Source of the DNA: Lytechinus variegatus
Lineage: Eukaryota; Echinodermata; Echinoidea; Temnopleuroida; Toxopneustidae
Length of the DNA stretch: 64,000 nucleotides
Assembly (NCBI RefSeq): GCF_018143015.1
Contig: NC_054758.1
Location: 7,115,501 to 7,179,500, forward strand
Reading direction: 5' to 3'
Part shown: piece after piece, positions 14,801 to 51,559 of the stretch
Layout: each line of letters begins with the position of its first letter
How positions within the stretch are numbered: the first letter of the stretch is position 1
The notes under the pieces: generated by a model
Database searches by the model: none
Told to the model about the DNA's origin: nothing
The model's input: only the letters and a program-made list of their open reading frames with translations
Translations under genes and position numbers: made by a program

Positions 14801-15744
14801 CGCGCGCAGCTTTCGGTCTAGTAATATTAGTCTGGTCAGTTAGCGGAATTATGTGGACACGGTGGACAAAAGCGTGATTTTTTCTCCAGACCTTTGTTTA
14901 TGTATAAGAATTAAGAATGGGGTATGCTCCAAAAAATCTGGCTGCAGGAACAGTGAAAAAATGGGTGAAAATGTCAGAATTTATGAGTTCAGATTTGTCT
15001 GGTATATAGACTAGCGCTAGTGCAAAACTCAATAGCAGTGCATTATTTTGCATTGGATTAGTTCTTGAATTCAGACCCTTTTTGAACAGATCTTCTGTTT
15101 GTCCTCGCATCTCAATGCACCAAATATCTGAATGAAGATGCTAACCAAGCCGAAGGGTGACGGTGGAGGGGGTTGAATGTTGGTGTGTGTGTACATATTT
15201 TGGTCTTGGGGTAAAGGTGTGCAAGACACATTTTTTGCATGTGTTGGAAATTGTGTTGCCATGGTAACAGTGTATTATTGCAAAAATAAGGTAAAAATCT
15301 TGCAGTTAGAACCACTTCCTCTGTTTTTAACCGATTCTCATGAAATTTGGCACACACATTGGTCTTGAGGTGAAGATGTCTAAGACACACTTTTGTGTGT
15401 CTTTCAGAAATCTTGTTGCCATGGTAACAACATATTATATGGTGAAAATTGGGAAAAAATCTTACAATTCAAACTGCTTCATCAGTTTTCAATCAATTCT
15501 AATGAAATTTGGCACACACATTGGTATTGAAGTAAAGATGTACTAGGCACTTTTTGTGTGTGTTTCAGAAACTGTGTTGTCATGGTAACAAAATATCATA
15601 TGGCAAAATTTAGGTAAAAAACTTGCAATTTGAACTACTTCATCAGTTTTGAACCAATTCTCGTGAAATTTGGCTCACACATTGGCCTTGTGGTAAAGAT
15701 GTGCAAGAACCTTTTTTTTGCATTTGTCAGAGAGTGCATTACCA

Positions 15745-15889
15745 GGGGCCCGTTGCATACAACTTTTTACCTGAGAAAACTCTGGTTGCTTTTGCCCTGT
15801 GTTAAAGTCAATGGCAGAAATCAGACTAACCTTAGTTTTCAGTTTTTACCAGAGTTTTCTCAGGTAAAAAGTTTTATGCAACGGGCCCC
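15745..15889. mobile_element. Palindromic MITE with GGCCCGTTGCATA ends and CCAGG target duplication
   Basis: GGCCCGTTGCATA with AACTTTTTACCTGAGAAAAC is mirrored at the right end. CCAGG stands on both sides of the pair of tips. The other arm of the host inverted repeat (about 19990) has the same flanks without the MITE, so this arm was filled after the arms formed. Confidence 0.8.
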
Positions 15890-16199
15890 AGGGTAGCCAC
15901 ATATGATAGCCAGAAATGAAGGAAAACTTATTGTGGATCAAACTTCCTCCCCTGTTTTTAGTCAGTGCTCATAAAAATTGGAAGAAATATTCATCTTAGG
16001 GTAAAGATTCATATTGAATTCTAAATGTCTTCTCTGCATTAAAATGTGGGGGTATTAATCACCTTCATTAATATTTCTGGGTTGGGGGGGAAGGGGCAGG
16101 ATTAGTCCTTTAAATCTGACATCAAAGAAGGTTAAAGGCAGTGGCCATTAGAAACATAAAAATGATAAAACACTCTTAAAAAACGCATCCCCTTAAGGG

Positions 16200-17843: not shown

Positions 17844-19149
17844 CTTAAGGGCATATAGGCTGGAGGTACACTGGGTGAATATGAAACCTTCCGCTGAAGC
17901 AGAGGAGTTCCAACACTGGCAAGCAAAACAAAATGTGTACCCCTTCTACTTTCAACAGCTGATTTTCCAAACCTTAGTTCCACCTCCCCAAGATGTGCAC
18001 CCCTCCCCATACCACTTTTAGTTCTACTTCCCCATGCTCAAACCAGTCTACACCTTTGTCCCTCAGGGGTCAATGCATTTTTGAAGCTAGACATTACTCT
18101 TTTTTTTGGGGGGGGATGGGGTCTTTAGAAAATGACCTCATTAAAATTACAGTTAAAGGATTATGACTAGGAACTTAACCCCCCCCCCCGAAAAAATAGG
18201 GGGCTGATAATACTTTTTAGCAGAAAATGCCCCCCCCCCTTCAAAGGTAAGAAGAGTCCTTTGCACTTCAGACCATTCATTTGAAGCTTAATGCATTCTG
18301 ATTTGATAAAAAAAAATTTACAGTACCTAATTAACCATTGTTTATTTATATTCTCCTACTCAGTCTTTTATTCATATTCATATTCCGTTCCTACTCTTTC
18401 TTTTTAATTTTCACATCACTCTTGATTTTGAGCTTCACCATGCCATCTCCTTCTGTTTCCTGTCTGCTGTCTCTCTCTAAGTAATTGTTTTGTAAAACTT
18501 AATTGTATCACCTAGATGTTATGTTGAATATTAATGCTGAGTGCAGAAATAAAATCAAATAAAAAATAAAAGTATATTTTTCTGACATATTTTAAAGTGT
18601 ACCTTTAATTTTGCAACTAATTATTATAGAAATATAAATACATACAAAAATCTGCACTTGTTTTAGAAATTCACTTGCAAATCCATGACTCAGTAACATA
18701 CCATATCAAAAATATACCTATGTGCACAATAGATTTTAGCCTTATATTTTCTTTCATTTAATTTTTTCAGTATATTTCTGTGACAGCCCCTGCTTCATGC
18801 TTCAAATAAAACATTGATTAATTGGACACCGGAAACTTTTTTTTTTTCAAAGCAGAATGTTTGAGGCTTTAAATCAATATGCTGAAGTGTAAAGGATTTC
18901 CCTTTTTTTTTTTGGGGGGGGGGGGGTTAAGTCCTTAGTCGTTATAATTTCATTTTAATCTTTATGTGGCAATTTTCTAAAGCCCCCCCAAATAAAAAAT
19001 GTAAGGGGTGTTTTTTTAAGACTGTTTAAGTTCCTCATGGTCATGGCCTTTAACCTTCTATATTTTTATGTTGTCAGTTTAAGGACCTTCTCCGCCCCCC
19101 CCAAAAAAGCCTATAAATATTATTGAAGGTGATTAATACCCTGCGCTAT

Positions 19150-19850
19150 TATATGACGTTATAAAGGGGAATCAAACCCAAATAAACACTTGTTTTTAGA
19201 GGAAAATGAAAAATCAGACAAGTTTATAGGTCAAAGTTTGAACAATATCGGACAAACCATAACAAAGTTGTGAACATATTAAAGTTATAAACATTGGTAA
19301 TCACTATACCCATGAAGACTTCAAATTGACCGCATATGTGATGTCACAGTAATTTAAGAAGGCAAGGACCACTCTTCCATGTACTGGAATAATTAATTAG
19401 CTAAAATTTCTTTTTTCAAAAGTTTTACTTCAAATTATATCTTTCTTTCATGAGGACATAAAACATACTACCGGTTTATATTACGGCGCCAATGGAATAG
19501 GGATTTAGGAGAAAAACAAAAATCCTGATAACTACTAGTCTTATGGGAAAGTTTACATAATAGAATAATTTACATAGATATACATGTACATGTAAGTAAT
19601 GATAATTATATAAAATAAAATGCAGTGGCCAGCTATCATAAGCAAGTTGTCCTTGCGGCCCCACCCCTTGTCATAATTTACTTACCCGGTTGCCAATTTG
19701 AATTCTACATACTAGTAGCCTTAGGGATCTTAATTTTAAAGCAACCATAACTATATTCCGCTTGTCCGATTTCTGTAAAACTTTCACCATTCTTATTTTT
19801 TCTCCTTTTCCATGCACACAACATTATGACCAAGGCTTGATTCCCTTTTA
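19150..19850. repeat. Extra repeat block in the right arm of the giant inverted repeat
   Basis: The left arm passes directly from AAGATTCATATTG to GGGTATTAATCACC, while the right arm has about 700 additional bases between these points. The block carries GTGATGTCAC and CTTGTCCTTGCGGCCCCACC and has no coding frame. Probably a separate insertion; its ends were not resolved. Confidence 0.5.
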
Positions 19851-20943
19851 ATACTGAATATGAATCTTTACCCAAAATGAATATTTGTGTCAACTTTTAT
19901 GAGCACAGGCTGAAAACTGAGAAGTAGACTGATCCACAATGAGTTTTCCCCATATTTTTGGCTAAATGTGGTTACCAAGGCAATGCACTCTCTGACAAAA
20001 GGTTCTTGCACATCTTTACCTCAAGGCCAATGTGTGAGCCATAATTATTTCATGAGAATTGGTTCAAAACAACAACAAAAAAAAAACTGATGAAGTAGTT
20101 CAAATTGCAAGGTTTTTACCTAAATTTTGCCATATAATATGTTGTTCCCATGGCAACACAATTTTGGAAACACACACAAAAAGTGCCTTGTACATCTTTA
20201 CTTCAATACCAATGTGTGTGCCAAATTTCATGAAAATTGATTGAAAACTGATGAAACAGTTTGAATTGTAAGGTTTTTTTCCCCAATTTTCACCAGATAA
20301 TATGTTGTTACCATGGCAACAAGATTTCTGAAAGACACACAAAAGTGTGTCTTAGACATCTTCACCTCAAGACCAATGTGTGTGCCAAATTTCATGAGAA
20401 TCGGTTAAAAACAGAGGAAGTGGTTCTAACTGCAAGATTTTTACCTTATTTTTGCAATAATACACTGTTACCATGGCAACACAATTTCCAACACATGCAA
20501 AAAATGTGTCTTGCACACCTTTACCCCAAGACCAAAATATGTACACACACACCAGCATTCAACCCCCTCCACCGTCACCCTTCGGCTTGGTTGGTTATAG
20601 CATCTTCATGCAGATAATTATTTGGTGCATTGAGATGCGAGGACAAACAGAAGATCTGTTCAAAAAGGGTCTGAATTCAAGAACTAATCCAATGCAAAAT
20701 AATGCACTGCTATTGAGTTTTGCACTAGCGCTAGTCTATATACCAGACAAATCTGAACTCATAAATTCTGACATTTTCACCCATTTTTTCACTGTTCCTG
20801 CAGCCAGATTTTTTGGAGCATACCCCATTCTTAATTCTTATACATAAACAAAGGTCTGGAGAAAAAATCATGCTTTTGTCCACCGTGTCCACAAGTAGGG
20901 CATTTTTGACGCTAACAGACCAGACTATATATTATAAGGTCTT

Positions 20944-23560: not shown

Positions 23561-23669
23561 TTAATATATTTAATTATTGGTGAAAACATGCAGTTATTAT
23601 ATGCACATCGTCCTGAATAAGGTGGACTGATAATGAAGTTATTGAATTTTAAAATTTATCAATATTTTG

Positions 23670-24340
23670 TCAAAGTAGTTATATGCACATCGTCATGAAT
23701 ATTCATTGGGTGGGCTGATGATGTCACGTCTCTACTTTCCTTTTTTCTTATGTTATCACATAAAATCATTGAGAGCGGTGTTGGCTCAGTCGGTAACGCG
23801 TCTGCCCGTCGAACCAAAGATCGTGGGTTCGAGTCCACCCCGGGCGGATGACTGAAGCCAGTGCGTTGTGTGTAAACGTCCCTCCCATGTTTCATAGATG
23901 CAGGCTATGTTACAATGGAAAACCGTTGACTCCGTCCCTCGGATAGGACGCTAAATGGAGGGCCCCGTGTAGAGGAGAGTCACCACCTTTGCACGTTGAG
24001 AACCATTGCACTATTCGTATAAGAGTAGGGGGAACCCCCGGTGTAGTGGTCTGCATTCCCCCAATCAGTTATCAGGCACAAGTGACGTACCAAACAAATA
24101 ATAATAATATTTTTTTTCATATTTTCATACAAGTGTAAATGATGTGTCTTCATTATGATGAAATAAGTTACGGCAATGAATAACTAATGCACTTAATCAG
24201 TAATCATTGTTAATCCAGTTGTTTTAGTTTTTAGTAGAAGTTTTTTTTACTAAACCTAATTTCATATAATGAAATACAAAACAAGTGGGGATATGACATC
24301 ATCAGCCCACCTATATGAATATTCATAAAGATGTAGCCTA
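23670..24340. mobile_element. TIR repeat with GGGCTGATGATGTCA ends, carrying a SINE
   Basis: CATGAATATTCATTGGGTGG and GGGCTGATGATGTCA on the left pair with TGACATCATCAGCCC and ATGAATATTCAT on the right. The interior is mostly the SINE at 23774-24115. It lies in the gap between LINE parts 1 and 2. Confidence 0.55.
23774..24115 (+). mobile_element. tRNA-derived SINE
   Basis: The head resembles a tRNA with A box TTGGCTCAGTCGGT and B box GTTCGAGTCC, followed by an unrelated body and a tail ending AACAAATAATAATAAT. The cloverleaf is not conserved at the acceptor stem, so this is a SINE and not a tRNA gene. The internal boxes would form a Pol III promoter. Confidence 0.75.
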
Positions 24341-24374: not shown

Positions 24375-24723
24375 TAACTTATTTCATCATTAGAACGAAA
24401 AACTCACTCTAGATTTTTAGGGGTTATCATAGATGAAGCTTTATCTTGGAATGAGCATCTGCTGATCTGCTCCATATATAGTGTGTATTTCAAAAGGAGT
24501 ATTGGAATTATTTGCAAGTTAAAATATATTTTGCCTCTTAAAGCTTTATTCTTATTGTACACTATAATTACCTAGTACTATATTGTAACGTCGTTCGGGC
24601 TAATTCTGGCTCTACAAAGCTGACTTTTATGTTTAAATTACAAAAGAGAGTTATTCGCATTTGCAAATCAGGATCGCATTACTTTGATTGGCTCACACTG
24701 TCCTTTATTTATCAAACAAAAAA
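24375..24723 (+). pseudogene. LINE fragment, part 2
   Basis: Encodes RFLGVIIDEALSWNEHL, then IGIICKLKYILPLKALFLLY and a W-x-NSGS-like remnant, the thumb and post-RT segment of the same LINE type. It breaks off at 24723 where the Ngaro-type element begins, and resumes at 42108. Confidence 0.75.
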
Positions 24724-24945
24724 ATTTATTTTCCAGCGTTACGGAGTATAGCTGGTAAATTTTGTTTAGACGGCAACGTATGAATGCTAAGTCAGGCAAG
24801 CGTAGCGGTCTTGACGACGTTGGGTAATTTGAATGTGACGTATAGGGTAATTTGTATATGAAAAGAAGTAGATTCTTGAGTTGGGCGTAGAGAACGCCGA
24901 GGATCATTCTAGCCTTCTACAGCATAGAACTAGCACGTCTTTTTT
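24724..24945 (+). repeat. Split direct repeat A1
   Basis: Begins ATTTATTTTCCAGCGTTACG and ends CTAGCACGTCTTTTTT. It matches 41402-41623 over 222 bases with about one mismatch seen by eye. Confidence 0.9.
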
Positions 24946-24963
24946 GGAGCTTCCGATATAAAC

Positions 24964-25350
24964 ATGGATCCGTCGAAAGTCGCAGAGTTAATTGATGTCA
25001 AGATGAGTCAGTCTCAGAACAATCTTCTATCCGAACTAGATAATTTAATTTCAAGCAGACTTAACAATTTTCAACAATCATTTGGAGAAACCCAGAAGAT
25101 ACTGAACGACGCCCAGGTCGCGAAGATTCGGGAAATGCATTCCGACGACTATAAATTCCAGAGGAGAGGAAATGAAGAACAGCACAAGGTCAACGCTAAG
25201 ATTCATAGAAAACTCGTGGAAGCCAATCATTACCTCGAGGGATCTCAGGACAGGCCATCAGCAGTTTCAGATGCTAAGGAAAAGATAGTCGAAGGTATAG
25301 ACATCATAGAAAAACGACAAAAGCTCATCAGAATGGCCGACCCCTTATAA
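24964..25350 (+). pseudogene. gag-like region of the Ngaro-type element, 5' part
   Basis: Starts 19 bases after repeat A1 at an ATG (MDPSKVAELID). It is a helical, charged, Gln/Asn-rich segment as in the first ORF of DIRS-order elements. It stops at the TTATAA where the 12.1-kb insert begins; gag-like sequence reappears at 37461. Confidence 0.75.
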
Positions 25351-25352
25351 AA

Positions 25353-26245
25353 AAAATTGAATGGTATACCATTGACTACCATTTATCATACACCATTGAT
25401 ATACCATTGGAATACCATTCGCACAGCACCCACCATACACCAATGGTATACCATTCAAGCCTCAATGGTATACCATTCAAACTAATCTAAATAATTCGGA
25501 CCTTACTATTACCATATTCATGAGCACCATTTACCATTCATATACCATTGATCAAACACCATTCACCATTGATCTACCATATGGCCACTATAGACAGGTT
25601 TACCATTGACCACCATTCACCATTCAGCCACCATTCACTGGCCTACCATTTACCATTCAGCCACCATTCACTGGACACCATTGGCCTACCAATTACCTTA
25701 CACCATTCACCATACACCATTCGCCTACCATTCAACATACACCATTCGTGTACCATTCACCATTCGTGTACCATTCACCATTCGTGTACAATTCACCATC
25801 CGCGTACCATTCATCGTACACCATTCACTGTACACCATTCGCGTACCATTCGCCGTACACCATTCGTGTACCATTCACTGCTCACCATACACCATTCAAC
25901 TACCATTCGTCGTACACCATTCACGTACCATTCACCGCTCACCATACACCATTCAACTACCATTCGTCGTACACCACACACCATTCACCATTGATTGACC
26001 ATTCACTTTACACCATTCTACCATACACCGTACACCATTGACCTACCATTTACCATACAACACTGTCATACACACTATACTATTAGTCAACCATTCAAAT
26101 AACACCATTGGTCATACACTATAGACCACAAGTTCAATGGTAGACCAATGGTTTACACTGAATGGTAGACAGTAGAACAACGATGTGCAATGTATAGTAG
26201 GCCAATAAAGTACAGTGAATGGTAGACCATTGGTGAACAGCATAT
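25353..26245. repeat. Left CCATT minisatellite array
   Basis: Units of about 10-16 bases built on TACCATTCACC run on the plus strand to about 26120. The last 100 bases switch to the complement (AATGGTAGACC). The palindrome AATGGTATACCATT occurs near the tip and again about 80 bases in. Open frames in several registers are a by-product of the repeat and not genes. Confidence 0.9.
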
Positions 26246-26424
26246 CTCTGGGGTTAGTGGTAGGCTTAATAATGGAATAAGTATACACAAGAAAAAAAAT
26301 GAAAACAGTTACTTATTTCAAGAACGTCAATAAAATATTTTTACTATAAGAAGTTTAAGTACAGCATAAATGGCACAGAGTATTCACAAGTATAGACTTT
26401 ATAATTAAAGCACATAAGTTATTA

Positions 26425-28576
26425 TATATGGGCAAGTCCAAGAAAAGGTCACCTGGAAGGCAAAATTTAATCTTTAATTTAAGAAGTTATCTTTGGTGGG
26501 GTAAGAAAGCCCAAATGTGGAATTTTAAATTTCATAAAGAAAAATTTGATAATATGCATATTTATGCTAATTTGGGGCACCTAATTTGCATAATCAGTAA
26601 AATGGGCGTTACGTATGGGACAATTATAAAAACTCATAGAAAATGAAAACAAAACTTCTGAGATTCAGTCATAGGTGGGACATGGACCCCCTTACATCTT
26701 ATTACTTTTGGCAGAAAAAAGTGGTGTCATCTAATTAATTATGCAAATTAGGTCTTGTCCAAGGATGGAATGTCCCATACGTAACATTTTGAGGATGTTT
26801 TTTTAAGTTATTTCTCATAATACAATACTTGTATTGTTGCATCTCTGGGAAGTTCTAATTTATTAAGTATGAAAATGTTATACCACAAAAAGTTTCAAAA
26901 ATGGAGTTTACTTTTTAATCATTACGCGAATCCTGTGTTTAAAAAATACCCCACCAGCTTATAACACAGGAACTCCATTGCCTTGCGTGTTGTGTCAATG
27001 GGAGCTCAGGTGGGGTATTTGAAACCCCAATTTCAGATTTTGGGAGAGCTCTCGTTTAAACTGGGGTGGGGTTCATCTGACTGCTGATAATGCCTTGCGT
27101 GTTAGTCAATGGGATCTCAAGTGGGGTATTGACACCCCAATTTCAGTTTTTTGGGAAAGTTGCATTTCTCGCGTTTAAACTGGGGTGGGGTCGATTTAGT
27201 GACTGCTGCTGCTGATAAGAGCCGATAACACTGATGCCTGCCACCACAACAGGCTGATGAACAGCATGGAGTGGGATTGCAGCTGTCCTTGTTACGTAAT
27301 AGTATAAACAAACTCTTCAGAGCTTCCTGGCTGACATTAATCTTGAAAGAATGAATTTGTATTCTATTTGTTTTAGGACATTAGCATATCTAAAAACGAT
27401 TCGGAATTTAGATGAAGATCGACATGAAATTTTGAACGATGCAAAATGACCCACAATTGCCGAAATAACAATAAGTTTAAAAAAATCACCCTCTCTCTCT
27501 CTTGCTCTCTCTCTCTGCCAGGCCTTATGAAGGTCACTTCTCCTTGGGGGAAGGTGGATTATCTGGGAGAGTGTGTGGTTGTTTACTTAAGGATAACCAT
27601 TCCTTGTTGATATCGGGATGGGGGGGGGGGCGAGTGAAGTAGCTTGGAATTGAAATTGGGGTGTCAGATGAGATCCATTTTTAAACACAAAGTTTCGTAA
27701 TGATTAAAAGTTAATTAAAAAATTGTTACGTATGGGACAACATGTTACGTATGGGACATTTACACACAATGTCAATGGGGAGATTTGTGTACAAAGTGAA
27801 TGGAGAAAAACAAATTTGAAGAGTGCTCTAAAAACTGATTATTTACCTTTTCTTTAGTTTTTAAACACTGATTTGTTATGAATACTGATTAATGAATACA
27901 AATGAAGCCCCAAAAAATGTGAAAATGGAAAAATATGAAAAAATAAAAACAATAGAAATACATAAGAAATTCATAAAACCATGAAAAACAAGGAATAAAA
28001 AGGTTGAAATGGCTAATTTCCCTTCAGTGATATCAAATATGTCTCAGTAGAACATTTAAAAAGAAAGAAACTCTTTTGTTATTTCCATATTTTAAATTAT
28101 TTCAATTTTTTGAATTATGGGGAAAATTGTGTACGTTCTCTATGGGGACAAAATGTCCCATACGTAACTGTCCCATACGTAACATGTCATTAATTTGTTT
28201 AATTAGAGTCTGTAATTAGAGGGATTTGGCTTATGACATGAAACTTGCCATAAATATACTTTAGTATTGAGACTTCTATCACACTAAGTTTCAAGTTGTC
28301 AAGTGAAATACTTTCAGAGAATTCTCATCTTGAAACTAATGTATTAAAAATTGTCTTTTCTCTGCGTCCCATACGTAACGGCGCATCTTTTTGCTCTAAA
28401 AGGTCAAGATCAAGGTCATATGTCACAATTTTTTGCATGATTATTCTTCTCCTAGATGTCTACCATCATGAGGGTATTCAATCTAATCAAAGTCATTTAA
28501 CACTATTTTTCAGGTCATTAAAGCCTCTGAAATGTCCCATACGTAACGCGCGCGAATTCTTGGACTTGCCCATATA
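26425..28576. mobile_element. 2.15-kb TIR element studded with GTCCCATACGTAAC motifs
   Basis: Ends ATATATGGGCAAGTCCAAGAA-like (26425 onward) and its complement (28556-28576) define it. The 14-base word GTCCCATACGTAAC or its complement occurs eight times (about 26607, 26771, 27725, 27750, 28147, 28167, 28366, 28532), some as close pairs. A unit of about 130 bp (CCTTGCGTGTT, GTCAATGGGA, TGGGGTATT) is tandemly doubled at 26975-27230. No transposase is found. Superfamily unknown. Confidence 0.6.
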
Positions 28577-29186
28577 TGACTTAGCTACTCGTTGATATCT
28601 ATACTCTGTCAATCTTGTTATCTAAAAGTAAACATGCATCAAGACAGAGTTTGATTGAAAAACACAACAAATGAAGGCTAACATTTCCAAGAATAAACCT
28701 GTTCTCTCATATTGCTTTTTACATGGATTGAGTACTTGGCAAAACCACTGTTCTGCATACAAACCTGATACTTGTAATACAATAAACTTGATGTTAAATC
28801 TGTTGTGTGTAATTGCTTTCAACGACATTAATAAACATTTTTTTACTAATAAGTTCAAGTACAAAAGAGTATTGACAGGTATGGCATAAAAGCACCATAT
28901 TATGAATACATGTGACTGTGCGACTCCACAAGAGATCAATGATTGCACTCCACATAAATATTATGTTAATCTTCCTATAAACAAATTTACATGTAAGACA
29001 GAGTTTGGACAACAAACTAATGAACACCAAATTTCGAAGATTAAACTCAAAATGTGTGATAGCCTTCACATGGCCAAATGAATAAAGGGTACCACACCTA
29101 GAAGAAATGAAATATCCCCAAAAGGGGGGAAAATAGTACTCCCAAATTGGTCTCTTTTTTCTTTTCACCTAAAAAGATATATCAAT
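28577..29186. other. Noncoding AT-rich stretch
   Basis: Short open frames on both strands are not supported by composition, motifs or splice context. I see no feature. Confidence 0.4.
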
Positions 29187-29738
29187 GGCATGTTTCTACA
29201 TAGAATTGTTAAAAGGTATTACCCGCCTAAGTATCCAGAATCCCTGATAACTTTCCTGTAGAAACAGACGCGATGCGGTTTATTGATAAATTGCATCGCG
29301 CAAAATACGGTTTCTCATAACCATCTCTCTGAGAGGTGGTTATTGCCATGTTAATCCGTTTAACTTTTCTGTAAAAACACGGGGCAAAATAGCATACGTG
29401 TCTGGCTTAAGTGCTTGAACCAAGAAGTGCGATCTCACAGTAAACATATATTCTGGCCGTTTTTTATCTCGCCAGCTGATCGCGAAACGTGTACCTGCTA
29501 CAATGAGTGAGATCTACCATGAATTTTGAAAATTTTCCTAACGAGATGCAATTTTTGACATACCAAAATGCAATGTGAGGTTATAGGTTGAATTTTCCGA
29601 TTTCCACCGTATTTGCGACGCGAAATGCAAGTTAATCAGATTATTCAGTCTGTAGAAACAGGTTGGTTTAAGAACGATAAGGTTATTCAAGTCCGGAAAA
29701 GATAAACTGTTTTTAATGATTTACTGTAGAAACACGCC
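29187..29738. mobile_element. MITE with GGCRTGTTTCTACA ends
   Basis: GGCATGTTTCTACA at the left and TGTAGAAACACGCC at the right are inverted. Variants of CTGTAGAAACA also occur at 29255 and 29650, and CGATGCGGTTTATT faces AATTGCATCGCG as a short inner palindrome. No coding. Confidence 0.6.
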
Positions 29739-30580
29739 AAAAGTTTATCATAAATACAATAATGATACATTAAGAAATAAATAATATATCACACATAGAA
29801 AAAAAATATAATGAAAATAAGGAAAGAAAATTATTCAATTTGGAACACTAAAAAACAGAAGAAAAATAGAGACCTTTTTTGCAAAATATATAGAAAATAA
29901 TATATACAAGATACCCACTTATTTCTTTTCTGTCTATTTTTGTTGTGTTATATTGTCTTACACAGTAAATCAGTAGTCAATCGTAATTTTTTACAACCGA
30001 GCTTGGACAAAATTTAAATTCATATAATACAAAAAATATATAAATTGTGATCTTGTATATTCATGAGGACTTGCAGAGAACAGTTTTAGCAAAAAATAAC
30101 AACTTTAATTCGTCAAAACTTTGTTAATCCTAAACAAATTTGGATGAGATTTTCAGTGTTTTTTGTTTGTCTGATGTACACTTTGAATTATATCACATAG
30201 CTTTCAGTCTCGAGTACCTCTAGCCCTTCAATCAAATTGGTTGGACGACCGGTTACACTTTACATATAACATAGTTATAAGGAGAATGAAGGGGACCATA
30301 GAAAGAAAGCATGAGAAAAGGGGAGATTTTGGTAGGGAGAGAATGAATCAGAAAAGGATCATGCTGAAAATTTCATTAAAATCTGATAATAACAAAGTTA
30401 TTGAATTTGAAATTTAACAACATTTTGGTAAAAAATTAACCCAATGTACACACGATCGTCAGGAATATTTGTTAGGCTTATTCTATAAAATGAAATAATT
30501 ATTTCATATTTTCATACATGTGTGTATGATATGTCCCAAGTATCATATCATTATTTCCAGCAATGCATATCTTCACATTA

Positions 30581-30996
30581 AAGGTCTAGTCCACCACAGA
30601 AAAGATTGTTTTGAATCAACAGAGAAAATCAGGCAAGCATCATGCAAAATATTTCATCTAAATCGGATGCAAAATAAGACCCTCACTTTTTGTTTTGGTT
30701 TTCATTGTTTGAATTGTACAATATTTTCAATTTTTTTTACAGATTTGACAATAAAAAATAAAAATAAAACTTTATTTCATAGGACAATGAGGAGAAAATT
30801 ATAATATTTCATATTTAAAAAACAAAGAAAAGTGAATGAGTGATGTCATCAGATCCCTCATTTGCATACCGACCTGGATGTGCATGTAACTATTAAGTGA
30901 AATTGAGCGAAACTTAAAAATGTCATACCTTTCTTTATGTTTGATTTTTCTCTTTTTAATCAAATCAACTTTTTTGTTAGGGTGGACATGTCTTTG
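30581..30996. mobile_element. MITE, AAGGTCWAGTCCACC family, copy 1
   Basis: Left AAGGTCTAGTCCACCACAG and right GGTGGACATGTCTTTG are inverted ends. The internal order (TTTCATCTAAATCGGATG, GTTTGAATT, GTGATGTCATCAGA, TTTTTCTCTTTTT) is shared with 57655-58075 and in part with 44515-44852. Confidence 0.65.
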
Positions 30997-31103
30997 AAAT
31001 AAATTTTCACTCCATTTTTTATAGTTCTCGGAGGACAAAATGTAAATTAGCGCGACTTCTTGTAATAAAATACAAAAGAACAAGTGGGGATATGACATCA
31101 GCT

Positions 31104-31270
31104 GGGAACGTCGTGGTCTAGTGGTTCTGACTCTCACCTTTCAAACAGAGGGTCGTGAATTTGAGTCCTAGCCATGGTGTGTTTTCCTTCAGCCCGAATT
31201 TCATCCACACTGTGCATCACTAGACCCAGATGAAGTGAATGGGTACCCGGCAGGATTAATTCCTTGAAGC
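31104..31270 (+). mobile_element. tRNA-Glu-like SINE
   Basis: The head CGTGGTCTAGTGGTTCTGAC resembles the D-arm side of tRNA-Glu, and GTGAATTTGAGTCCTAGCCA resembles its B box and acceptor. Mismatches and a 3' extension (ACTAGACCCAGATGAAGTGA, GGGTACCCGGCAGG) mark it as a SINE and not a tRNA gene. Confidence 0.7.
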
Positions 31271-31809
31271 TGTAATAAGAAATATTGGATGAAAACAATG
31301 CAAAGGACAGTATATTAGCTAAGGGTTCAAAATATGAATGCTTGTCATGTGTGTAAGCTTTCTTTAGAAGTTCATATATTTTTTTATATATTGAGAAATT
31401 TGCAGTATACTCTACCATTCAATTGAATGATACCAATTAACAAATATCAACAAAACATTTTGTAAAATATGATAAATAAATTTATGTTTAACCATAGATG
31501 GGTAGACAATAACCTATTATATAATGGGAGGTTGCCCCAATGATGACAAATACCACAACAAATGAATACCTGGGGAAAAAGTGTCCACCCTTCCCCCCTC
31601 AGCCAACATACTGATTTTTTTCTGGGGGGGGGGGGGTGTCAGAAAAGACGTGTGCTCCTCTAAATAGGGATGACATTTGTCCTTTCTAAGGATTTTTTAC
31701 CATTCCTGACAAGGTTTTTTTTTCAGCTATGCCACTGCAGGAATACAATCTGTTTTATCTCATGAAGCTTTGCATTTTTTTCTACTGAAGAAAATTCTTA
31801 CACACCTAC

Positions 31810-31929
31810 CTTTCATAAACTCCAATTGTTTCTTGTACACGGTACGTTTTCTGTGTTCAACACCCGTCGTGTCATTCCAAGATAAGGCTGGATCATCTAC
31901 CTTATCATCCAGTGTATCCGTCGTCCAAA
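31810..31929 (-). CDS. Candidate 120-bp coding exon inside the 12.1-kb insert
   Basis: The minus strand has an acceptor (TTTATTTCATTTTCAAAG) and a donor (ATGAAAG/GTAGGTGTG). One frame is open throughout; it reads WTTDTLDDKVDDPALSWNDT and continues TGVEHRKRTVYKKQLEFMK, while the other two frames have stops. The phase is compatible with a donor at 34557, which would precede it as GYN plus a split codon. The product is not recognised. It could be part of a gene carried by the insert. Confidence 0.4.
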
Positions 31930-32699
31930 CTTTGAAAATGAAATAAAATCAATTTAAGTGTTGTAAAATCTGCATGTATGTGCAGATACAAACAAAAATA
32001 GAATACTAATATAGTAATAGAAAAATAATGATCTTAGAACTTTAATGTTAAAGATATTTTTCATGGACCTCTGATTACCAGCCCAGAATTTAGGATAAAA
32101 ATAAGGAAATGTGATAGTATTTCAGCGTAGTTCAGACAAGGCTGTATTATAACTGTGCATGCTTTATACTAGTAATAGCTATGTCATCTGAAATCAAATT
32201 TCTAGAGCAGCGATTTTCAAGAGGGTAATCGATGACATAAATTCCATTTTTCTGGTATTGACAATCGCAGAAGCAGATCCAAGTGGGCACATTTGACCTG
32301 TGCCCCCACCTTGAGAGCAATAGTTGATGTGTTTGATAAAAATGTGGCTTTCTTACACAAGTGTTCCCCCCCCCTTCGAAAGTTACAGCAAATATTTATA
32401 TTAAAAATATTGTCTCATACAAGAGGATCTCCTTTTGGTTTGCTTGTTATTTAAAGTTTCCTTGGGAAAATGTGCCCCACTACCCCCTTTGAGAAATCAT
32501 GGATCCGTTCATGGACAATCATATGCCAGTGGATGAACTCCAGACGTTTTTTAGGCAAGTTTTGATCAGTAAATAAATAAAAACAGATAAAATGTGATCA
32601 CAGGACAAACTTAACTTTAAAAGAGGATAAAATTTACTTTAAAAATTGATATGCCTAGCCCCATGAAAGGATCTGAGAATACCCTCCGGCACTAATGCA

Positions 32700-33011
32700 G
32701 TTTCACACCAGCCAACTCACAGTGAACAATTGTGTACAACGGATAGCGGAGCGTGAACGTAGCGGTCGTGTACATTTTTGCTTATTACATGACGTCATCC
32801 AGCCACTGCCGAGAACCAATTTATGAATGAAAATATAGTAAGCATGCGCAGTGCAAGCCTTTTGTTTCCCCACACAGAATTCCACCAAAACAAGTGTGCA
32901 ATTCCCTATCACCTCGTACCAAAATCGACCTAGAATTTCAATTTTCCTATATCTTATATGAATTATGAAAGGTATTCTCGGAGGATCTATTTTCTCACCG
33001 ATACCGCACAG
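32700..33011 (+). promoter_or_regulatory. Candidate promoter and short first coding exon, plus strand
   Basis: GCATGCGCAGTGC (NRF1-like) lies near 32840. An ATG at 32958 opens 18 codons (MNYERYSRRIYFLTDTAQ) ending exactly at a strong donor CAG/GTAAGC at 33011/33012; a second ATG at 32965 is also open. Being upstream of the minus-strand exon at 31929, the region could be bidirectional. No downstream plus-strand exon was identified. Confidence 0.3.
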
Positions 33012-33499
33012 GTAAGCGAATTTTGAATACTTCTTGCTTTTCCGTCAAAATCTTACGAATTAGCGTCTATATGTCATCGTGTTCCTTGGAATTTGTAGAG
33101 TCTATCGCAACGTGCATAAAGTCAATTGGCTTCCGGGTTTTGGAGCGTTGCGTGAATATGCATGAAATTGCAGTTTCGATAATTTTCGATCGATACCGGA
33201 GCGATCCGATCACGAACCAAGACCATTTACCGTGTACACAACATGACCGGATATCGTTATCGATACTTCCGCACGCAGTCCAAAGGAATTATTTTTGGGA
33301 CCACGTGGTCATGACGTGATCTGCGCTATTGACCAATCAGCGGTCTTCGATCGAATCGCTGTGCGGAGACGATCTATCCGTTGTACACAGTCTATGGACA
33401 ATTGTTCGTTGTGCATGCAACTTCAAGCAAAACTCCCCACCAGAATAATTGTCTACACACATTTTGAGATCAATACAATATCAATTCTAGATCAATATG

Positions 33500-33765
33500 C
33501 CCACCACTTTTCAAAATATTGCGGATCGCTTGGATTCGCCGTCATGTTGATATGGACCGAAGTTATGCGATCAAAAGATTCGCATGCGGCATGCTGGCAG
33601 TTTGTTTGCCACATGTTAGCATGATTTGGTTGCTAACTTCAGTCCATATAAATATTACGGCGAATCCGAGAGATCCGCGAAGTGATGTCTACGGATTAGA
33701 TCAACGACGTCGAGATCGAAGACTAAATACAGCCATTCCCAATATTTTGAAAAACGGTGGGAATA
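33500..33765. repeat. Imperfect inverted repeat
   Basis: The left arm (GGATTCGCCGTCATGTTGAT, ATGGACCGAAGTTA) pairs with the complement of 33632-33683 (TAACTTCAGTCCATAT, TTACGGCGAATCC), with outer TTTTCAAAATATTG repeated as CAATATTTTGAAAAAC. The loop is about 65 bases. It may be a MITE. Confidence 0.55.
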
Positions 33766-34379
33766 TTAACATCGAAATGTGACTGAGAGACCTGTCATGA
33801 CATTTGGGAACAAGTTTTGGTGATGAGGTATGCTGGTAATCGGCCGGTGCAAAACTGCATTAGCGCCAGTTTTCTCTGCATATTTATTGCAGCCTCTGTA
33901 GAAAAATTGAATAGGAATCGTTTGTCACTCCGTCCAGTCACAGTTCCACACACAAAGTGCACATTTTACCATTGAAATAGTATGTGCAATGAGTGGTGTG
34001 TACAGTGTAGCAAAGTTATAGACCTGCGTAGCCTTTATCATTTTTTAAACTTTAGGACCCTTACCATGTTTCACCTCCATTTTATCTCATTTACCAACAT
34101 CTATCAACAACAACAACAACAAATTATAGGCCTAATTTCAAAGCAATATTTGTCGGCAAGTTTTCAATTTCAGTAAATTAACGTGTGCAGTAACCGGTAA
34201 CGGTCTATTTATTCACAATTAAAACTTTGACAGTCTTGACATTAGCATTAACAAATCATTCATTCACGAATTCAATGTATTCAGAGATGGTTTTTGTAAA
34301 ACATTGACAATAAACATCAGGCAATATGAGCGAATTACTATTCAATGCTCGCCGATCTTAACTCTGCCAATACAAAGCA

Positions 34380-34760
34380 TAAACCATAAGCACTCCCTAT
34401 CGTCAAAGCCACGTCCCGGCCGTAGAGCAGCGGCCAGCGCCAACGGGGCAGTGACGGTGGCAGTGCAGTGGTCGTGCATGTCGTGGCAGTACAACGACAT
34501 CTAACATTTTGAGACAATTTGAGAAATAAATCAAAGAAAATTGTTATAGAACTTACTGTTATAGCCTTCTACAAATGACTTTGAAGTCGCTGTCCGAATC
34601 TGACCCGTGTTCCTTTAGTTTTTGATGAATTATCGACGGACTTATCACAGCCAAAACGGTAGTACGGTAGATCGAGTTTTCTTTTTCAAATATTGCACTT
34701 GGCGGTTAGACGTTCGCGCGTGCGTAGTGCGAGAACAACACGTATAATAGAGCTATACTG
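34380..34760 (-). promoter_or_regulatory. CpG-rich promoter-like DNA with a candidate first exon ending at 34557
   Basis: The block is CpG-rich for this window (CCCGGCCGTAGAGCAGCGGC, CGTTCGCGCGTGCG). On the minus strand GGCTATAACA/GTAAGT at 34557 is a good 5' splice site. The preceding frame (RNTGQIRTATSKSFVEGYN) is open but has no ATG before an upstream stop, so it is either noncoding or lacks its start. Joined in phase, it would lead into the 31929 exon. Confidence 0.3.
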
Positions 34761-36289
34761 GCAAGCAGCCAAGCGGCCCCTCTCGCAAAGCATATGGGGG
34801 GGATAAATTATGACAAAATATGGGGGGAGGGGACTTCTTCGCCAAGATAAATACACATCCCGATATGGGTGGGGGGGGGGGGGGGTGAATTAAAACCAAA
34901 TCAGGGGTGTCTTCTTTTTCCTCTCGATTGGTTCTGGGTTGGAAACCATGATGGCGTGAGTGCATGCCACTGTTTTCCTTGGATCTTGGAATCTATGAAA
35001 AAAGTTTTCGATCCCTTCACATTTTTTTCCTGTTCTCTATGTTATTTTCTTTTTTATTTTCGTTGTCTTTTTTTCTTTTTCTGTTATCTTTCTTTTCTTC
35101 TTTGCCTTTTTCTTTTCTTGTTTTTTCCCCTTTATATATATATTTTTTACTCACTCCTCTTCCCTTTTAATTTGCTTTTGTAATGATTGAAATTGAGATT
35201 TCATTCAGTAGATTTCTTTTCTGTTACATTGTTGTACTATACCCTGTATGGCGGCAGGGAATTTTGATAGGGGTGAGGGAGCAAGACCATGTGGATAAAT
35301 CATTTCAATCAAGTAATGCCGGTCTATAGAATAGCTCTCCTCTTTATAAACGCCGTCCACAAGTGGGAAAGAATATTTAGAGCCTAAAATAGAATTAGAA
35401 TTTTGGAAATATCATTTGTAAAAAAAGGGTGAAATAATTCATGATTGGAAGCAGCTATAATAGCGTACAAATGGGTCAGATGGGGCTTTTGACGTTGCAG
35501 ACAGACCAAATCAGGGTTTGCGGATGGGAATTTGATAGAGGTTGGGGGACCAAGACAACCAACAGTGAATTCATTTTTAGCAAAATATGGGGCATTGCAA
35601 GAAACTTGCAATCGAAGCAATCGAACGCAAATCAATTTCAGACTCCAAAATCATGAGAGTCATACTTTTCATTGCAAACTTGCAACTGATCCATAAAAAA
35701 ATCCAAATTGATATGTTCTAGATAAACTTAATGTATCATCACCTGTAAATTTGCATCTGATCGAATTTTGGGATTGATTGCAAATATCTTCTTGGAACAC
35801 TAAATATATATTTCTTTTTATAAAAAGCGGCCATAAACAAGCAAAATGATTATAAAAATAGAATAAAACTTATTAATTAAAAATTAAAACCCTTTTTATC
35901 AAAAAAGATTTCATTGACCGATTGATTTTATTTTTGCATGCACCCATTGCATCAGATTTAAATTTATGTACAATAGTAAAATATAACAAATTTATAATAT
36001 TGTATCATAACCACTGGATCAATAATATTTAAACACATATAGACCTTTTACTTAATAAGGACAAAGACAATTTAAAAGAATGCAAGAGACCATGTTTACA
36101 ATCATGAGCGATTACACTTGATTTGGGGAAGCTGCTCGCATAAAAGTCACAGGTCAAATATTTAATTAACTCTAAATACCTTTTAATCTTTGATATATTT
36201 TCTTTAAATCTTCGGAATTATGTTAATGGGTAATGCAATTGGGCATATCATTCAGCATTAACACAAATGGCATTCATTAGGCAAACACC
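34761..36289. other. Noncoding stretch
   Basis: Contains a G tract near 34867-34884, a long C/T-rich run at 35010-35170 whose open frames are low-complexity artefacts, and an AT-rich tail. No supported gene. Confidence 0.45.
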
Positions 36290-37445
36290 ACTAAGCCACT
36301 ATAGCTTTACAATTATCCAACATGATTATATTATATACCACTAGGCACATACTACTAAGACACCATATTGATACCAATCATACCATTATAGAGGCACATA
36401 CTACTGAGACACCACTGAATACCACTGAGACACCATTGTATACCACTGAGACACCATTGGGTATATAATGGTATACCATGCAGTCATACCATTAGAGGCA
36501 CATACTACTCAGACACCATTTGACACCACTGAGACACCATTGGGTATATGGTATACAATTCATCATACCAGTCATACCATTATAGAGACACATACTACTG
36601 AGACACCATTGTATACCACTAAGACACCATTGGTGCATGGTATACCATTCATTATACCGGTCATACCATTAGAGGCATATACTACTGAGACACTATTGAA
36701 TACCACTGAGATACCATTGTATACCACTGAGACACCATTGGATGTATGGTATACTATTCATCATACCAATCATACCATTACAAGCACATACCACTGAGAC
36801 ACCATTGAATACCACTGAGACACCATTGTATACCACTGAGACACCATTGGGTATATCATGGTATACCATGCAGTCATACCATCAAAGACACATACTACTG
36901 AGACACCATTGAATACCACTGAGACACCATTGTATACCACTGAGACACCATTGGTGCATGGTATACCATCCATTATACCAGTCATACCATTAGAGGCATA
37001 TACTACTGAGACACCATTGTATACCACTGAGACACCATTGGTGTATGGTATACCATTGATCATACCAATCATACCATTACAGGCACATACTACTGAGACA
37101 CCATTGAATACCACTGAGACACCATTGTATACCACTGAGACACCATTGGATGTATGGTATACTATTCATCATACCAATCATACCATTACAAGCACATACC
37201 ACTGAGACACCATTGAATACCACTGAGACACCATTGGGTAAATGGTATACCATTCATCATACCAATCATATCATTAGTCACATACCACTGAAACACCATT
37301 CGGTATATGGTATACCATTTACCATTAAATAAACTACCAATTACCATTAAGAACTTACCATTGAAACACCACTTAAATACCATTCGCGTACCATTTACCA
37401 TTCAGATTACCATTCAACTACCATTCGGCACCATTCAAATACCAT
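36290..37445. repeat. Right CCATT minisatellite array
   Basis: Units GAGACACCATTGNATACCACT (about 21 bases) form higher-order blocks of roughly 200-300 bp that repeat at least four times, each including GGTATACCAT and CATACCATTA.AG. The unit is longer and more regular than in the left array but has the same CCATT core and strand. Long frames on both strands are repeat artefacts. Confidence 0.9.
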
Positions 37446-37460
37446 TGGCGATTTTTATAA

Positions 37461-38113
37461 GGGACAAGTCGCCGTTGGGATGGAAACTTGTCGATGAGTA
37501 CGAGCAGAACACTTTAGCCGACGACTCAGACGATGAAAAACGCATGTTCAAAGCCGAGGCGAGGGCGGAAAGAAAAGCGAAGAAATCTAAGAAGCCAGAA
37601 GGGAGGCGTTACTTCCCTTATTGCGGATACCCAGCTTCGCCATGGAAGAGCCACCCAGGTTCCCAGAAAGAACAAGGCCCCTCCACATCTAGCTACACAT
37701 CATATACCCCCTTCGGTCGTACGACACCAGAAGAACGCAAGAAGCCCGGGATCTGTTTTTCATGCGGAAAACCAGGCCACTGGAAGGTGGATTGTCCGTC
37801 CATCAGAGGAAGCCGTTCAGATCAGATAAGTGAATCTAAGTTTTTTGTTGAGCATAACAAGATAGTATCTGAGAGTTCATCCCAAAAAGAAATAGAAGGG
37901 ATATCTGAAATTGTACAAGTTAAAAATACAAAGTTGTATGAAGAAGCTGAGGGTCAAGATACTGAGTTGGTAGACTCGAGAGAGAAGGAGAATGTTTCTC
38001 CTGTTGGAAAGTTGAAAGAAAATGCTAGTGCATGGGCCGAATTCGGTGCTAGCAAAGAGATTTTAGACGTGATCCAGAACGGTTACAAATTGCCTTTACA
38101 CACGTTGCCCTGA
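37461..38113 (+). pseudogene. gag-like region of the Ngaro-type element, 3' part
   Basis: A basic segment (KAEARAERKAKKSKK) is followed by a CCHC zinc knuckle CFSCGKPGHWKVDC (37754-37795), a nucleic-acid-binding motif found in gag proteins. An acidic Ser/Glu-rich tail follows. It lies directly outside the right TTATAA. Confidence 0.8.
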
Positions 38114-38183
38114 TGATAGAGAACTCACTAATAACATATCCGCACGTAACCATTCAAATTTCGTACAGGGAGAAATCGGGAAA

Positions 38184-39052
38184 TTGTTAAAAAGAGGTTG
38201 TGTTTCAGAAGTACAATTTAAGCCATCAGTGGTTAACCCCTTAACCGTTTCTGAAAACAAGGGAAAACTTAGATTAGTGTTAGACTGCAGACATGTCAAT
38301 CCACATTTGTACAAGAACAAATTTAAGTATGAAGATGCCTCGGTTGCTAGGGATATTTTTGAGCAAGGGGATAACGTTTTCACATTCGATCTTAAATCAG
38401 CATACCATCATGTGGAGATTTTTGAAGAACATAGGAAATATTTAGGTTTTTGTTGGGAGTTCCATGGTCAGAAGAGATACTTTGTCTTTAATGTTTTACC
38501 CTTCGGTATATCTACTGCTGGTTACATCTTCACAAAATTAACCAGAGTACCAGTTACTTATTGGAGGTCACAAGGAAAGAAGGTTGTCATGTTCTTAGAC
38601 GATGGGATTGCTGGTTGTAGTGACATGAAAGTTGCAAACGAAATGAGCAGACAAATCAAGGCCGATCTAAATAAGCTGGGATTTGTTTTAGCTGAGACCA
38701 AGTGCGATTGGTTTCCCCAGAATAAAGCGACATGGCTAGGTATGTTTTGGGATTTTCACGAGGGAGATGTTTACATTACAGAAACAAGGATGCAAAAATG
38801 CAAAAAGTAATTGAAGATGTCTTAACGAAAATCCAAAAAGGAAAATATATAATACCAGTTCGAACTTTGGCCAGCGTAACAGGCCAGATAATTTCTATGC
38901 AACCGGCAATTGGTACAATAGTTCAATTGAAATCAAAAGAAATATTTAAGTGCATCAATAACCGAGCCTCTTGGAACGCCCCCGTATTAGTTACAGGAGA
39001 AGCGGTTACAGAATTATTGTTCTGGTATAAACACTTAGACAGGCTAGCTTAA
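38184..39052 (+). pseudogene. Reverse transcriptase region of the Ngaro-type element
   Basis: Carries the DIRS-group RT motifs: LRLVLDCRHVNPHL, TFDLKSAYHHVEI, NVLPFGISTAGYIFTKL and the catalytic box FLDDG (at about 38592). The fingers and palm order is as in Ngaro/PAT elements. Part of a fossil element. Confidence 0.85.
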
Positions 39053-39094
39053 CGGTGTATCAATTTCACGAGTAAAGTCATGTAATTGCTGTTT

Positions 39095-39980
39095 ATTCAC
39101 CGATGCGTCGGGCACTGGATTCGGGGCGTATGTTAGTGAAATACCAGACCTGGAAGTGGTCGGTTCATGGACAGACTCCGAAATGAAATATAGTTCTTCA
39201 TGGAGAGAAATCGAAGCGTTAAATAGAGCTCTGAAATCAGTCGGTCCGTGTCTGGAAGGGCAGGATATTCGTTGTTACACAGACAACAAAAACGTTACTA
39301 GCATAGTTCAGAGAGGCAGTAAGAATGTACAACTGCAAGAGATAGCAATCGAGATACATGATACATGCGATCTTTATGGATTGGGCATAGATATGGTTTG
39401 GATTCCAAGAGAAATGAATGTTATGGCAGACAGTCTTAGTAGGATATCAGACAGTGATGACTGGGGCATTAGCTATGATGTATTTCAATATCTGAACCAA
39501 GTATGGGGACCACGTTTGGTCGACAGATTTTCATGTGATTACCATGCAAAATGCAGTCGATTTAATTCGAGATGGGGATGCTCCAGTACAGAAGGTGTTG
39601 ATGCTTTCAAACAGTCCTGGGCTAATGAAATCAATTGGTGGGTCCCTCCACCTCGTTTAGCTGCCAGAGCAATTGGAAAAATAGTGAAAGAAAGGGCAGA
39701 GGGTACCTTAATTGTTCCTGTGTGGGAATCTGCTCCATTCTGGCCCAAAATTTACCAAGGAGGAACATTTGTTCAATTCGTGAAAGAAAGTTATGTATTT
39801 CCATGTCAAGAAATTATGAAAGGAAAGGGAAACAACGGTATTTTTGGTTCCGTGGGACAACGGTTTTCCATGGTTGCTTTGAAATTACGTTTTAGACATT
39901 CTTATTCATTTTTTGCAGGTTTAGGACTACGAACATCAATAAAAAACGAAGTGTTGGCTTCTGGGGCTTCGGGCAAGCTG
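39095..39980 (+). pseudogene. RNase H and connecting region of the Ngaro-type element
   Basis: TDASGTGFGAYVSE, then REIEALNRAL, YTDNKNV and MADSLSR are RNase H landmarks. They are followed by the DRFSCDYHAKCSRFNSRWGC, GVDAFKQSW and NWWVPPPRL stretch that links RNase H to the recombinase in Ngaro-like elements. Part of a fossil element. Confidence 0.8.
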
Positions 39981-40917
39981 CTGAGATTAGCAGATATCTA
40001 GTCGACTCCAGGAGTGAAGGTACAACCAACAATTACTTCTGTAGTTTCAAAAAGTTCGAAGAATTTATCAACGCTGAGGGCAAGAGGGCGCTACCTGCTG
40101 AACCTATACACATTGCTTTATATTTAACTAGTTTGATTGACGCCTGTAAGTCCTCAACAGTTATCCAAGGCGCTTTATACGCCATCAAATGGGCACATAA
40201 ACTGAAGGGTTTAGCCGATCCAACGACCAATGGCTTTGTAGTTCATTTGGTGGAAGCCGCTAAGAGAAAAAGTTACACGAAAACGACGAAGAAGGACATC
40301 TTAACGAATGAGCAGATAGTCAACCTTTGCGACAAGTATAAAAAGATACACAAGACATTCTCGTTCTGAGAGATCTCGCATTTATCACACTTTGTTACAG
40401 CGGATTCTTCAGATTCGACGAAGCGCGATCACTCAAGTGTAATGATATTACCTTCTTCGATGATTATATGTCTGTAAAAATTTGTAAAAGTAAAACTGAT
40501 CAATACAGAAAAGGAGACGAGGTAGTTATAAGTAAAGGGCAAACAAACGCATGCCCTGTCAGTATCTTGAAGAGATATATGTTTAGCACAGGGATTAATT
40601 CTGCCTCAGATCATTTTTTATTTAAGCCCGCTTACGGTAACCGGAGAGGAAAGTTCTTGATACATAAAAATAAATCAATGAGTTATACTAGAACACGAGA
40701 AACAGTAGTAGCTCGTTTGAAGGAAGTGAGTAGTGAAGACGCTAAAATTGGTCTACACTCCTTGAGAGCTAGCGGGGCCACAGCCGCCGCAAGGAGCAAG
40801 GTGAATGACAGGGTCTGGAAAAGACATGGTAGGTGGAAAGGTGAGAGAGCCAAAGACGGCTACGTAGAGGATAGCTTACAGGATAGATTATCTGTATCGA
40901 AAGCTCTTGGTTTGTAA
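39981..40917 (+). pseudogene. Tyrosine recombinase region of the Ngaro-type element
   Basis: Shows YSGFFRFDEA (first catalytic Arg region), HSLRASGATAAA (H-x-x-R) and KRHGRWKGERAKDGYVE (His/Trp box and the nucleophilic Tyr). It integrates a circular DNA copy in this family. Part of a fossil element. Confidence 0.8.
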
Positions 40918-41288
40918 TGTGGTACATCTATTATAAATATTGATTTCTCCAAATTGAGGAATAATATCTTTATTTATTGTATCTTGCATTCCATTTGAGA
41001 CTAACCTACGTTCGAAGCTCAGGTTGGATATGACAATGATAATAAAAGGCCTTATATGGAATGTATGAATTACTTTCGATTCAGAATAGTTTAAATTTTT
41101 AATGTAACAGCTTCTATCGCTCATCAATATTTCAATTATTTAACAAATTAGAATTTTATCAGTTTTTGAATACGTCATCACATGACACGAGCACATATAT
41201 ATGCTCTAATTTTCGTAACTGGTCAAAATTAGGTCCATATACATTTAATGAAGTTAAATGTAAATACCGCCCTTCTTTGTAGTTTATT

Positions 41289-41401
41289 CTAGTAGCTTGG
41301 CAGGCTAATCCCAAAATAACGTGTATTTTGGTTTTTTTGGTGCGTTATGGTTTGTAATGAGAGATTTGTAAGACTTATGCTGTGAACGTTGGAGGATGAA
41401 C
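41289..41401 (+). repeat. Split direct repeat B1
   Basis: CTAGTAGCTTGGCAGGCTAA to GTTGGAGGATGAA, shared with 41978-42107. It abuts A2 directly, giving the B1-A2 junction expected for split direct repeats. Confidence 0.85.
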
Positions 41402-41623
41402 ATTTATTTTCCAGCGTTACGGAGTATAGCTGGTAAATTTTGTTTAGACGGCAACGTATGAATGCTAAGTCAGGCAAGCGTAGCGGTCTTGACGACGTTG
41501 GGTAATTTGAATGTGACGTATAGGGTAATTTGTATATGAAAAGAAGTAGATTCTTGAGTTGGGCGTAGAGAACGCCGAGGATCATTCTAGCCTTCTACAG
41601 CATAGTACTAGCACGTCTTTTTT
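41402..41623 (+). repeat. Split direct repeat A2
   Basis: Copy of A1 (24724-24945), almost identical. Confidence 0.9.
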
Positions 41624-41977
41624 TAAAAAGACCAATTAGTTACCCGAGTTAATATTTTAAGAATCCATTATTTCGTTTTATGTCTGGTAACAACGTTTGT
41701 AATAGCCTAGGGTTTTTCAGAGTTTTTGCGCTTATTAGTTTTTTATCTCTGTTTTTTCAGCCCGGGCTAATAGGATAGGGAAATGTTAGAGTCAAATTTC
41801 CCGTGTTAGGATTAAAAAGGACAAAACCTACGAAGATGATGTACCTTAAAACACATACTGAAGAAGCAATTGGTTTGTTTTCGCGTTTGTGACATATCTT
41901 ATTTTTATGACAACTGTGTTGTCAAATGTATTGATTATTTGATATTACTGAATAAAGACCTCGCCGGCTCGATCGTG

Positions 41978-42107
41978 CTAGTAGCTTGGCAGGCTAATCC
42001 CAATCAGTCGAGGCTACTCAATCACGTGTATTTTGGTTTTTTTTGGTGCGTTATGGTTTGTAATGAGAGATTTGTAAGACTTATGCTGTGAACGTTGGAG
42101 GATGAAC
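41978..42107 (+). repeat. Split direct repeat B2, right terminus of the Ngaro-type element
   Basis: Copy of B1 with about 20 more bases after GGCTAATCCCAA. Its end coincides with the point where the LINE resumes. Confidence 0.85.
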
Positions 42108-51458: not shown

Positions 51459-51559
51459 TTTAATGACCGGATATCTTTGGCCTTGATTGAAAGGACAACT
51501 TTGGTAGAGATCGTGACAAGGGGCTTAAAAAAAATTCGAGTAGAAGTATCAACGGAATC

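Follow-up and report, generated by a model that had tools for sequence, protein, structure and literature searches.

In the excerpts of the literature cited here, elements of the CMCT group are described as generating target duplications of 2-5 bp, and the tips of CMC members read CA..TG in most cases (PMC12730594). In CACTA elements, subterminal repeats follow one another at close spacing over hundreds of bases, in zones that are mirrored at the two ends (PMC8978399). The tips of piggyBac elements read 5'-CC..GG-3', and IS3EU requires a 6-bp duplication beside TA..TA tips (PMC10045372). Tol2, a member of the hAT superfamily, creates 8-bp duplications at sites with the weak consensus TNA(C/G)TTATAA(G/C)TNA (PMC8151067, PMC4818426). 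Here, we analyzed a stretch of 64,000 nt from Lytechinus variegatus (NC_054758.1), referred to as the window, in which all positions are counted. It contains, in one copy, a block of 12,122 bp (25342-37463) that is probably a non-autonomous DNA transposon of the cut-and-paste type with 12-bp inverted tips, inserted into the gag of a DIRS1/PAT-like retrotransposon with a duplication of 2 bp (AC) or 3 bp (GAC). The insertion is clean and real, and the element is of an ordinary kind with unusual ends.

The retrotransposon and the two parts of its gag are arranged as follows.

24721-42107, plus strand: host DIRS1/PAT-like retrotransposon with A1 ... B1A2 ... B2 split direct repeats, interrupted by the insert
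24721-24945, plus strand: A1 repeat of the host (A2 at 41399-41623)
41289-41401, plus strand: B1 repeat of the host, directly joined to A2 (B2 at 41978-42107)
24964-25341, plus strand: 5' part of gag, ending ...EKRQKLIRMAD
37464-38113, plus strand: 3' part of gag, resuming KSPLGWKLVDEY... and carrying the zinc knuckle

Pfam domains occur in the host in the order zinc knuckle (right gag half), RVT_1, RNase H, a Dam-like match and Phage_integrase, a tyrosine recombinase; the Dam-like match (E = 1e-4, 22.4 bits) lies below the curated Pfam cut-off of 28.1. With reverse transcriptase, RNase H, tyrosine recombinase and the split direct repeats all present, the host is DIRS1/PAT-like. The A1 and A2 repeats are 99.1% identical (2 mismatches over 225 nt), in agreement with a preliminary description of the sequence that had called the host young, and B1 and B2 differ by 1 mismatch and 17 gap positions over 130 alignment columns. 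If every round of retrotransposition leaves the two A repeats identical, their divergence of 0.9% indicates that the insertion is recent. Despite the 99% identity of the A repeats, the host pol (38073-40917) is spread over several overlapping frames, which may mean that the copy, though young, is dead, or that the assembly contains indel errors.

The preliminary description had also placed the gag of one retroelement outside both ends of a 12.1-kb unit, which was confirmed by the two gag halves: they are split by approximately 12.1 kb of DNA with a CCATT array at either end. Less fortunate was its proposal that the unit had been inserted at TTATAA. Identical copies of this hexamer are indeed found on both sides (25345-25350 and 37455-37460), where they form the longest direct repeat at both junctions (6 bp); the whole window contains 44 copies. 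The outer neighbors of the hexamer are CCC on the left and GGG on the right, the inner neighbors AAA and TTT. Together, these bases make up a 12-bp perfect inverted repeat, CCCTTATAAAAA..TTTTTATAAGGG, and the ends of the block can be described as follows.

25340-25341, plus strand: left copy of the putative target-site duplication AC (GAC at 25339-25341 if 3 bp)
25342-25353, plus strand: left terminal inverted repeat CCCTTATAAAAA, containing the TTATAA of the preliminary description
37452-37463, minus strand: right terminal inverted repeat CCCTTATAAAAA, reverse complement of the left tip
37464-37465, plus strand: right copy of the putative duplication AC, the first two bases of the gag 3' part (GAC at 37463-37465 if 3 bp)

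An inverted match of at least 12 bp was obtained in 0 of 400 Markov-1 randomizations of the two 101-base junction boxes (largest match, 10). Without mismatch, CCCTTATAAAAA has exactly two sites in the window, which are the two tips in inverted orientation. The element is flanked by GAC and ACAA, and a GAC/GAC duplication requires ragged tips, the right one being one base shorter. Removal of 12,124 bp, leaving one AC, rejoins gag in one frame as ...RQKLIRMAD|KSPLGWKLVDEY..., with no stop and no shift; the joined gag reads ...IIEKRQKLIRMADKSPLGWKLVDEYEQNTLADDSDDEKR.... When one TTATAA is left instead, the product reads ...RMADPL followed by a stop and a shifted frame. This join opens only with one added base, giving ...RMADPxIRDKSPLGW..., which is five residues (PxIRD) longer than the AC join. 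Because of the stop and the frameshift, and because the CCC/GGG-flanked palindrome belongs to a longer inverted tip, TTATAA is disfavored as a target duplication. Most likely, it is part of the 12-bp terminal inverted repeat, and 25342-37463 delimits the element better. Thus, a bounded insertion in gag stands on its tips, direct repeat and frame, whereas its assignment to a TTATAA target is not favored. The locus illustrates how a palindromic tip may be mistaken for a target site as long as the reading frame of the interrupted gene is not considered.

A duplication of the 6-bp TTATAA on insertion, for instance by a hAT-like element at a TTATAA-centered site, would leave tips reading AAAAAA..TTT. 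We consider this quite unlikely, although the hexamer is identical on both sides and the empty site that it implies, CCCCTTATAAGGG, holds CTTATAAG, to be compared with the weak consensus of Tol2 (PMC8151067, PMC4818426); it is this TTATAA-centered preference of Tol2 that kept the alternative under consideration. The stop and the shift could be reconciled with it by a 1-bp indel at the junction, which is possible in a host copy with several frame changes downstream. However, the flanking CCC/GGG would then be due to chance, and the 8-bp duplication of Tol2 is missing: the offsets tested at the junctions revealed direct repeats of neither 7 nor 8 bp. Moreover, the excerpts of the literature on TTATAA and target-site duplication give no 6-bp TTATAA duplication, and the hexamer otherwise appears in them only as part of single sites, flanks or a 9-base preference. 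The two boundaries differ in what they imply for related sequences: with TTATAA as the target, other host gag copies would carry CCCTTATAAGG, whereas with the AC join the empty site, or uninterrupted gag, would be GCCGACAAGTCG, without CCCTTATAAGGG. A corrected duplication has a precedent in ATon of Aedes aegypti, for which the first assignment proved wrong after empty-site comparison (PMC3422177).

Pattern scans for gag relatives yielded 1, 33 and 58 matches in three scans of the collection viral_contigs and 135 matches in genome_contigs, none of them a relative, and no relative was confirmed in the phage collection. Likewise, the 7 pattern matches to the host reverse transcriptase in genome_contigs included no relative. 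These absences say little, because the collections searched are viral and prokaryotic. A PDB search with gag returned 3 matches (lowest E = 0.84), and a string search of the literature for gag peptides returned no match. We take RQKLI.xAD(K/R)S..GW to be common in DIRS gag proteins; the collections searched yielded no relative that would confirm it.

Tandem CCATT motifs adjoin both tips.

25360-26240, plus strand: left CCATT array, with spacings of mostly 11, 14 and 7
36371-37446, plus strand: right CCATT array, with 21 as the commonest spacing, then 27, and longer units that measure 87 and 109 bp

The presence of arrays at both ends, already reported in the preliminary description, is evident from the counts on the plus and minus strands: 49 and 7 CCATT in 25342-26240, and 45 and 3 in 36240-37463, with a background of 12 and 15 in 10,000 inner bases and of 64 and 86 in the 51,898 bases outside. 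The palindrome TGGTATACCA is confined to the arrays, which hold all ten window copies (3 left, 7 right). The bulk of both arrays lies on one strand, and plus/plus matches connect the final ~70 bp of the right array with the left one. The first AATGGTAT is found at a distance of 18 bp (left) or 17 bp (right) from the tip, with the two motifs inverted relative to each other, which suits a candidate tip-proximal binding site. Helical phasing of the array motifs, assessed without a control, revealed no convincing period. In viral_contigs, the tip pattern gave 0 matches, and the palindrome AATGGTATACCATT was found in at least 120 stretches. Among the matches listed, these stretches look like chance matches, because they contain few ACCATT (no more than 5 per 500 bases and strand) and no CCCTTATAAAAA.

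Arrays running in the same direction would also fit a circle opened within one of them. A circular element, Crypton-like or moved by another site-specific recombinase, that recombined at a shared TTATAA core would account for the identical hexamers at both junctions. It runs into the same frame problem as the TTATAA join, its inverted tips would be unexpected, and no recombinase domain was detected in six frames of 25900-35800; we regard this origin as extremely improbable. Arrays are also hard to assemble. A misjoin that misplaced array DNA into the retroelement is nevertheless very improbable in view of the matching inverted tips, the short direct repeat and the gag frame that is exactly restored at the junctions.

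A Pfam scan of 25900-35800 in six frames, with X at stops, found 0 families up to E = 0.1 in all six frames; the range covered lies between the array-bearing ends at 25342-25899 and 35801-37463. A transposase encoded within 25900-35800 was rejected as a candidate on the grounds of this result. An intron was rejected as well, since the ends of the element show no GT..AG. Within the block, we identified the following repeats.

26424-28577, no strand assigned: nested element with 21-bp perfect terminal inverted repeats ATATATGGGCAAGTCCAAGAA and eight TTACGTATGGGAC motifs (3 plus, 5 minus)
30389-31100, no strand assigned: nested dispersed repeat resembling a miniature inverted-repeat transposable element (MITE), in pieces 74-86% like 23630-24301 and 57794-58075
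31105-31280, plus strand: stretch resembling a tRNA-derived short interspersed element (SINE), with an A-box-like TGGTCTAGTGG, negative in ARAGORN and Rfam
33482-33779, no strand assigned: nested imperfect inverted repeats, 78-87% complementary

The TTACGTATGGGAC motifs are located at 26609, 27726 and 27745 on the plus strand and at 26772, 28155, 28170, 28366 and 28534 on the minus strand. Three longer pieces of the MITE-like repeat are 74-79% identical to their counterparts, and two pieces of 40-44 columns are 85-86% identical. Rfam and ARAGORN gave no match over the whole window or with the SINE-like stretch; the tRNA-SINE label is presumptive and received no support from either program. A likeness of the SINE- and MITE-like sequences to echinoderm repeats is presumptive as well and was supported by no search. 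According to the preliminary description, the insert contained several decayed repeats. Nested repeats are present, whereas their decay rests on the 74-86% identity of one of them. It is plausible that the block was already composite when it moved.

We compared these properties with those of the known systems. With CACTA/EnSpm elements (CMC), the block shares inverted tips, dense subterminal repeats and a putative short duplication (2 or 3 bp, in the one copy available). It differs from them in its CCC..GGG instead of CA..TG tips, in arrays that run in the same direction rather than being mirrored, and in that no transposase was found. The CCC..GGG tips agree with the CC..GG of piggyBac, whereas the flanks are AC or GAC and not TTAA. 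The likeness to Tol2 consists in the TTATAA-centered target and holds only if the TTATAA boundary is right, which would break the gag frame; the longest repeat among the offsets tested is 6 bp, in contrast to the 8-bp duplication of hAT elements. For IS3EU/GingerRoot, the junctions, which read ACCCCT versus AGGGAC, do not provide the required 6-bp duplication beside TA..TA. ATon is similar in that it comprises non-autonomous elements with terminal inverted repeats and no known autonomous partner; it is AT-specific, however, with tips reading ATAGGCC, and the part of PMC3422177 compared does not mention arrays. The excerpt on KolobokP describes a composite-like architecture in invertebrates as well, but with terminal direct repeats of ~450 or 660 bp, the TTAA duplications of the Kolobok superfamily and an encoded transposase (PMC9587614).

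Since CACTA/CMC, piggyBac and hAT all agree with the block in some trait and all disagree with it in another, we leave the superfamily unnamed. The preliminary description had recognized no known superfamily; this is true insofar as none can be named, but it was partly an effect of the boundary chosen, because, once TTATAA is placed inside the tips, the block has the structure of a large non-autonomous transposon with terminal inverted and subterminal repeats. A refinement compatible with such a transposon is a non-autonomous member of CACTA/EnSpm (CMC group) or of piggyBac, which is possible but doubtful: the putative duplication of 2-3 bp and the subterminal arrays are as in CMC, and the CCC..GGG tips are as in piggyBac, yet the CA..TG tips of the former, the TTAA duplication of the latter and a transposase in 25900-35800 are all missing. 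An undescribed lineage of eukaryotic DNA transposons is, in our view, unlikely; its members would have tips reading CCC..GGG, would duplicate 2 bp other than TA and would carry long ACCATT/TGGTATACCA arrays running in one direction, which would let a transposase encoded elsewhere move blocks of more than 10 kb with nested passengers. The tips were not encountered in the literature titles and abstract openings surveyed.

Several points weigh against the cut-and-paste transposon with an AC or GAC duplication. A single copy is known, and a direct repeat of 2 or 3 bp is in itself weak evidence at junctions whose longest direct repeat is TTATAA, the center of a palindrome for which Tol2 has a known weak preference. 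The left and the right array share their strand, unlike the mirrored subterminal repeats of CACTA elements. Finally, the likeness of the joined sequence RMAD|KSPLGW to DIRS gag proteins is presumptive, as the collections searched yielded no relative of the gag.

If the block is such a transposon, it would have landed in the gag of a retroelement that was already resident, duplicating AC (or GAC). A transposase encoded elsewhere may bind the tips together with the CCATT/TGGTATACCA arrays, which occupy ~0.9-1.1 kb next to the tips, and may move the whole block, with the nested repeats riding as passengers. The locus would then clearly exemplify a large passenger transposon captured within a young retroelement. 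Should the family prove mobile, it could be used to study the function of long subterminal arrays.

Further features were observed elsewhere in the window. An element of ~6 kb (14852-20893) has inverted ends of ~800 bp, which begin with GTGGACACGGTGGACAAAAGC and contain 161-bp tandem repeats; its arms are complementary over 275 nt (100%), 317 nt (99%) and 200 nt (93%), and a target duplication was not obvious by eye. The region 805-2631 contains an open frame of 608 aa with no Pfam match up to E = 0.01; within this frame, 204 bp are duplicated in tandem, and a 60-bp repeat is present as well. A 15-bp unit, AGGTAAAAATGGCAG, is repeated 26.3 times at 62650-63047 and is open in several frames. 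At 60102-60966, we found a fold-back repeat with arms of 379 nt that are 98% complementary and 107 nt apart, both ends starting with TCATAAACCCAATT. An open frame of 336 aa at 51491-52501 encodes a YqaJ-like viral recombinase domain (E = 4.1e-18) and also matches a viral alkaline exonuclease (E = 3.2e-07).

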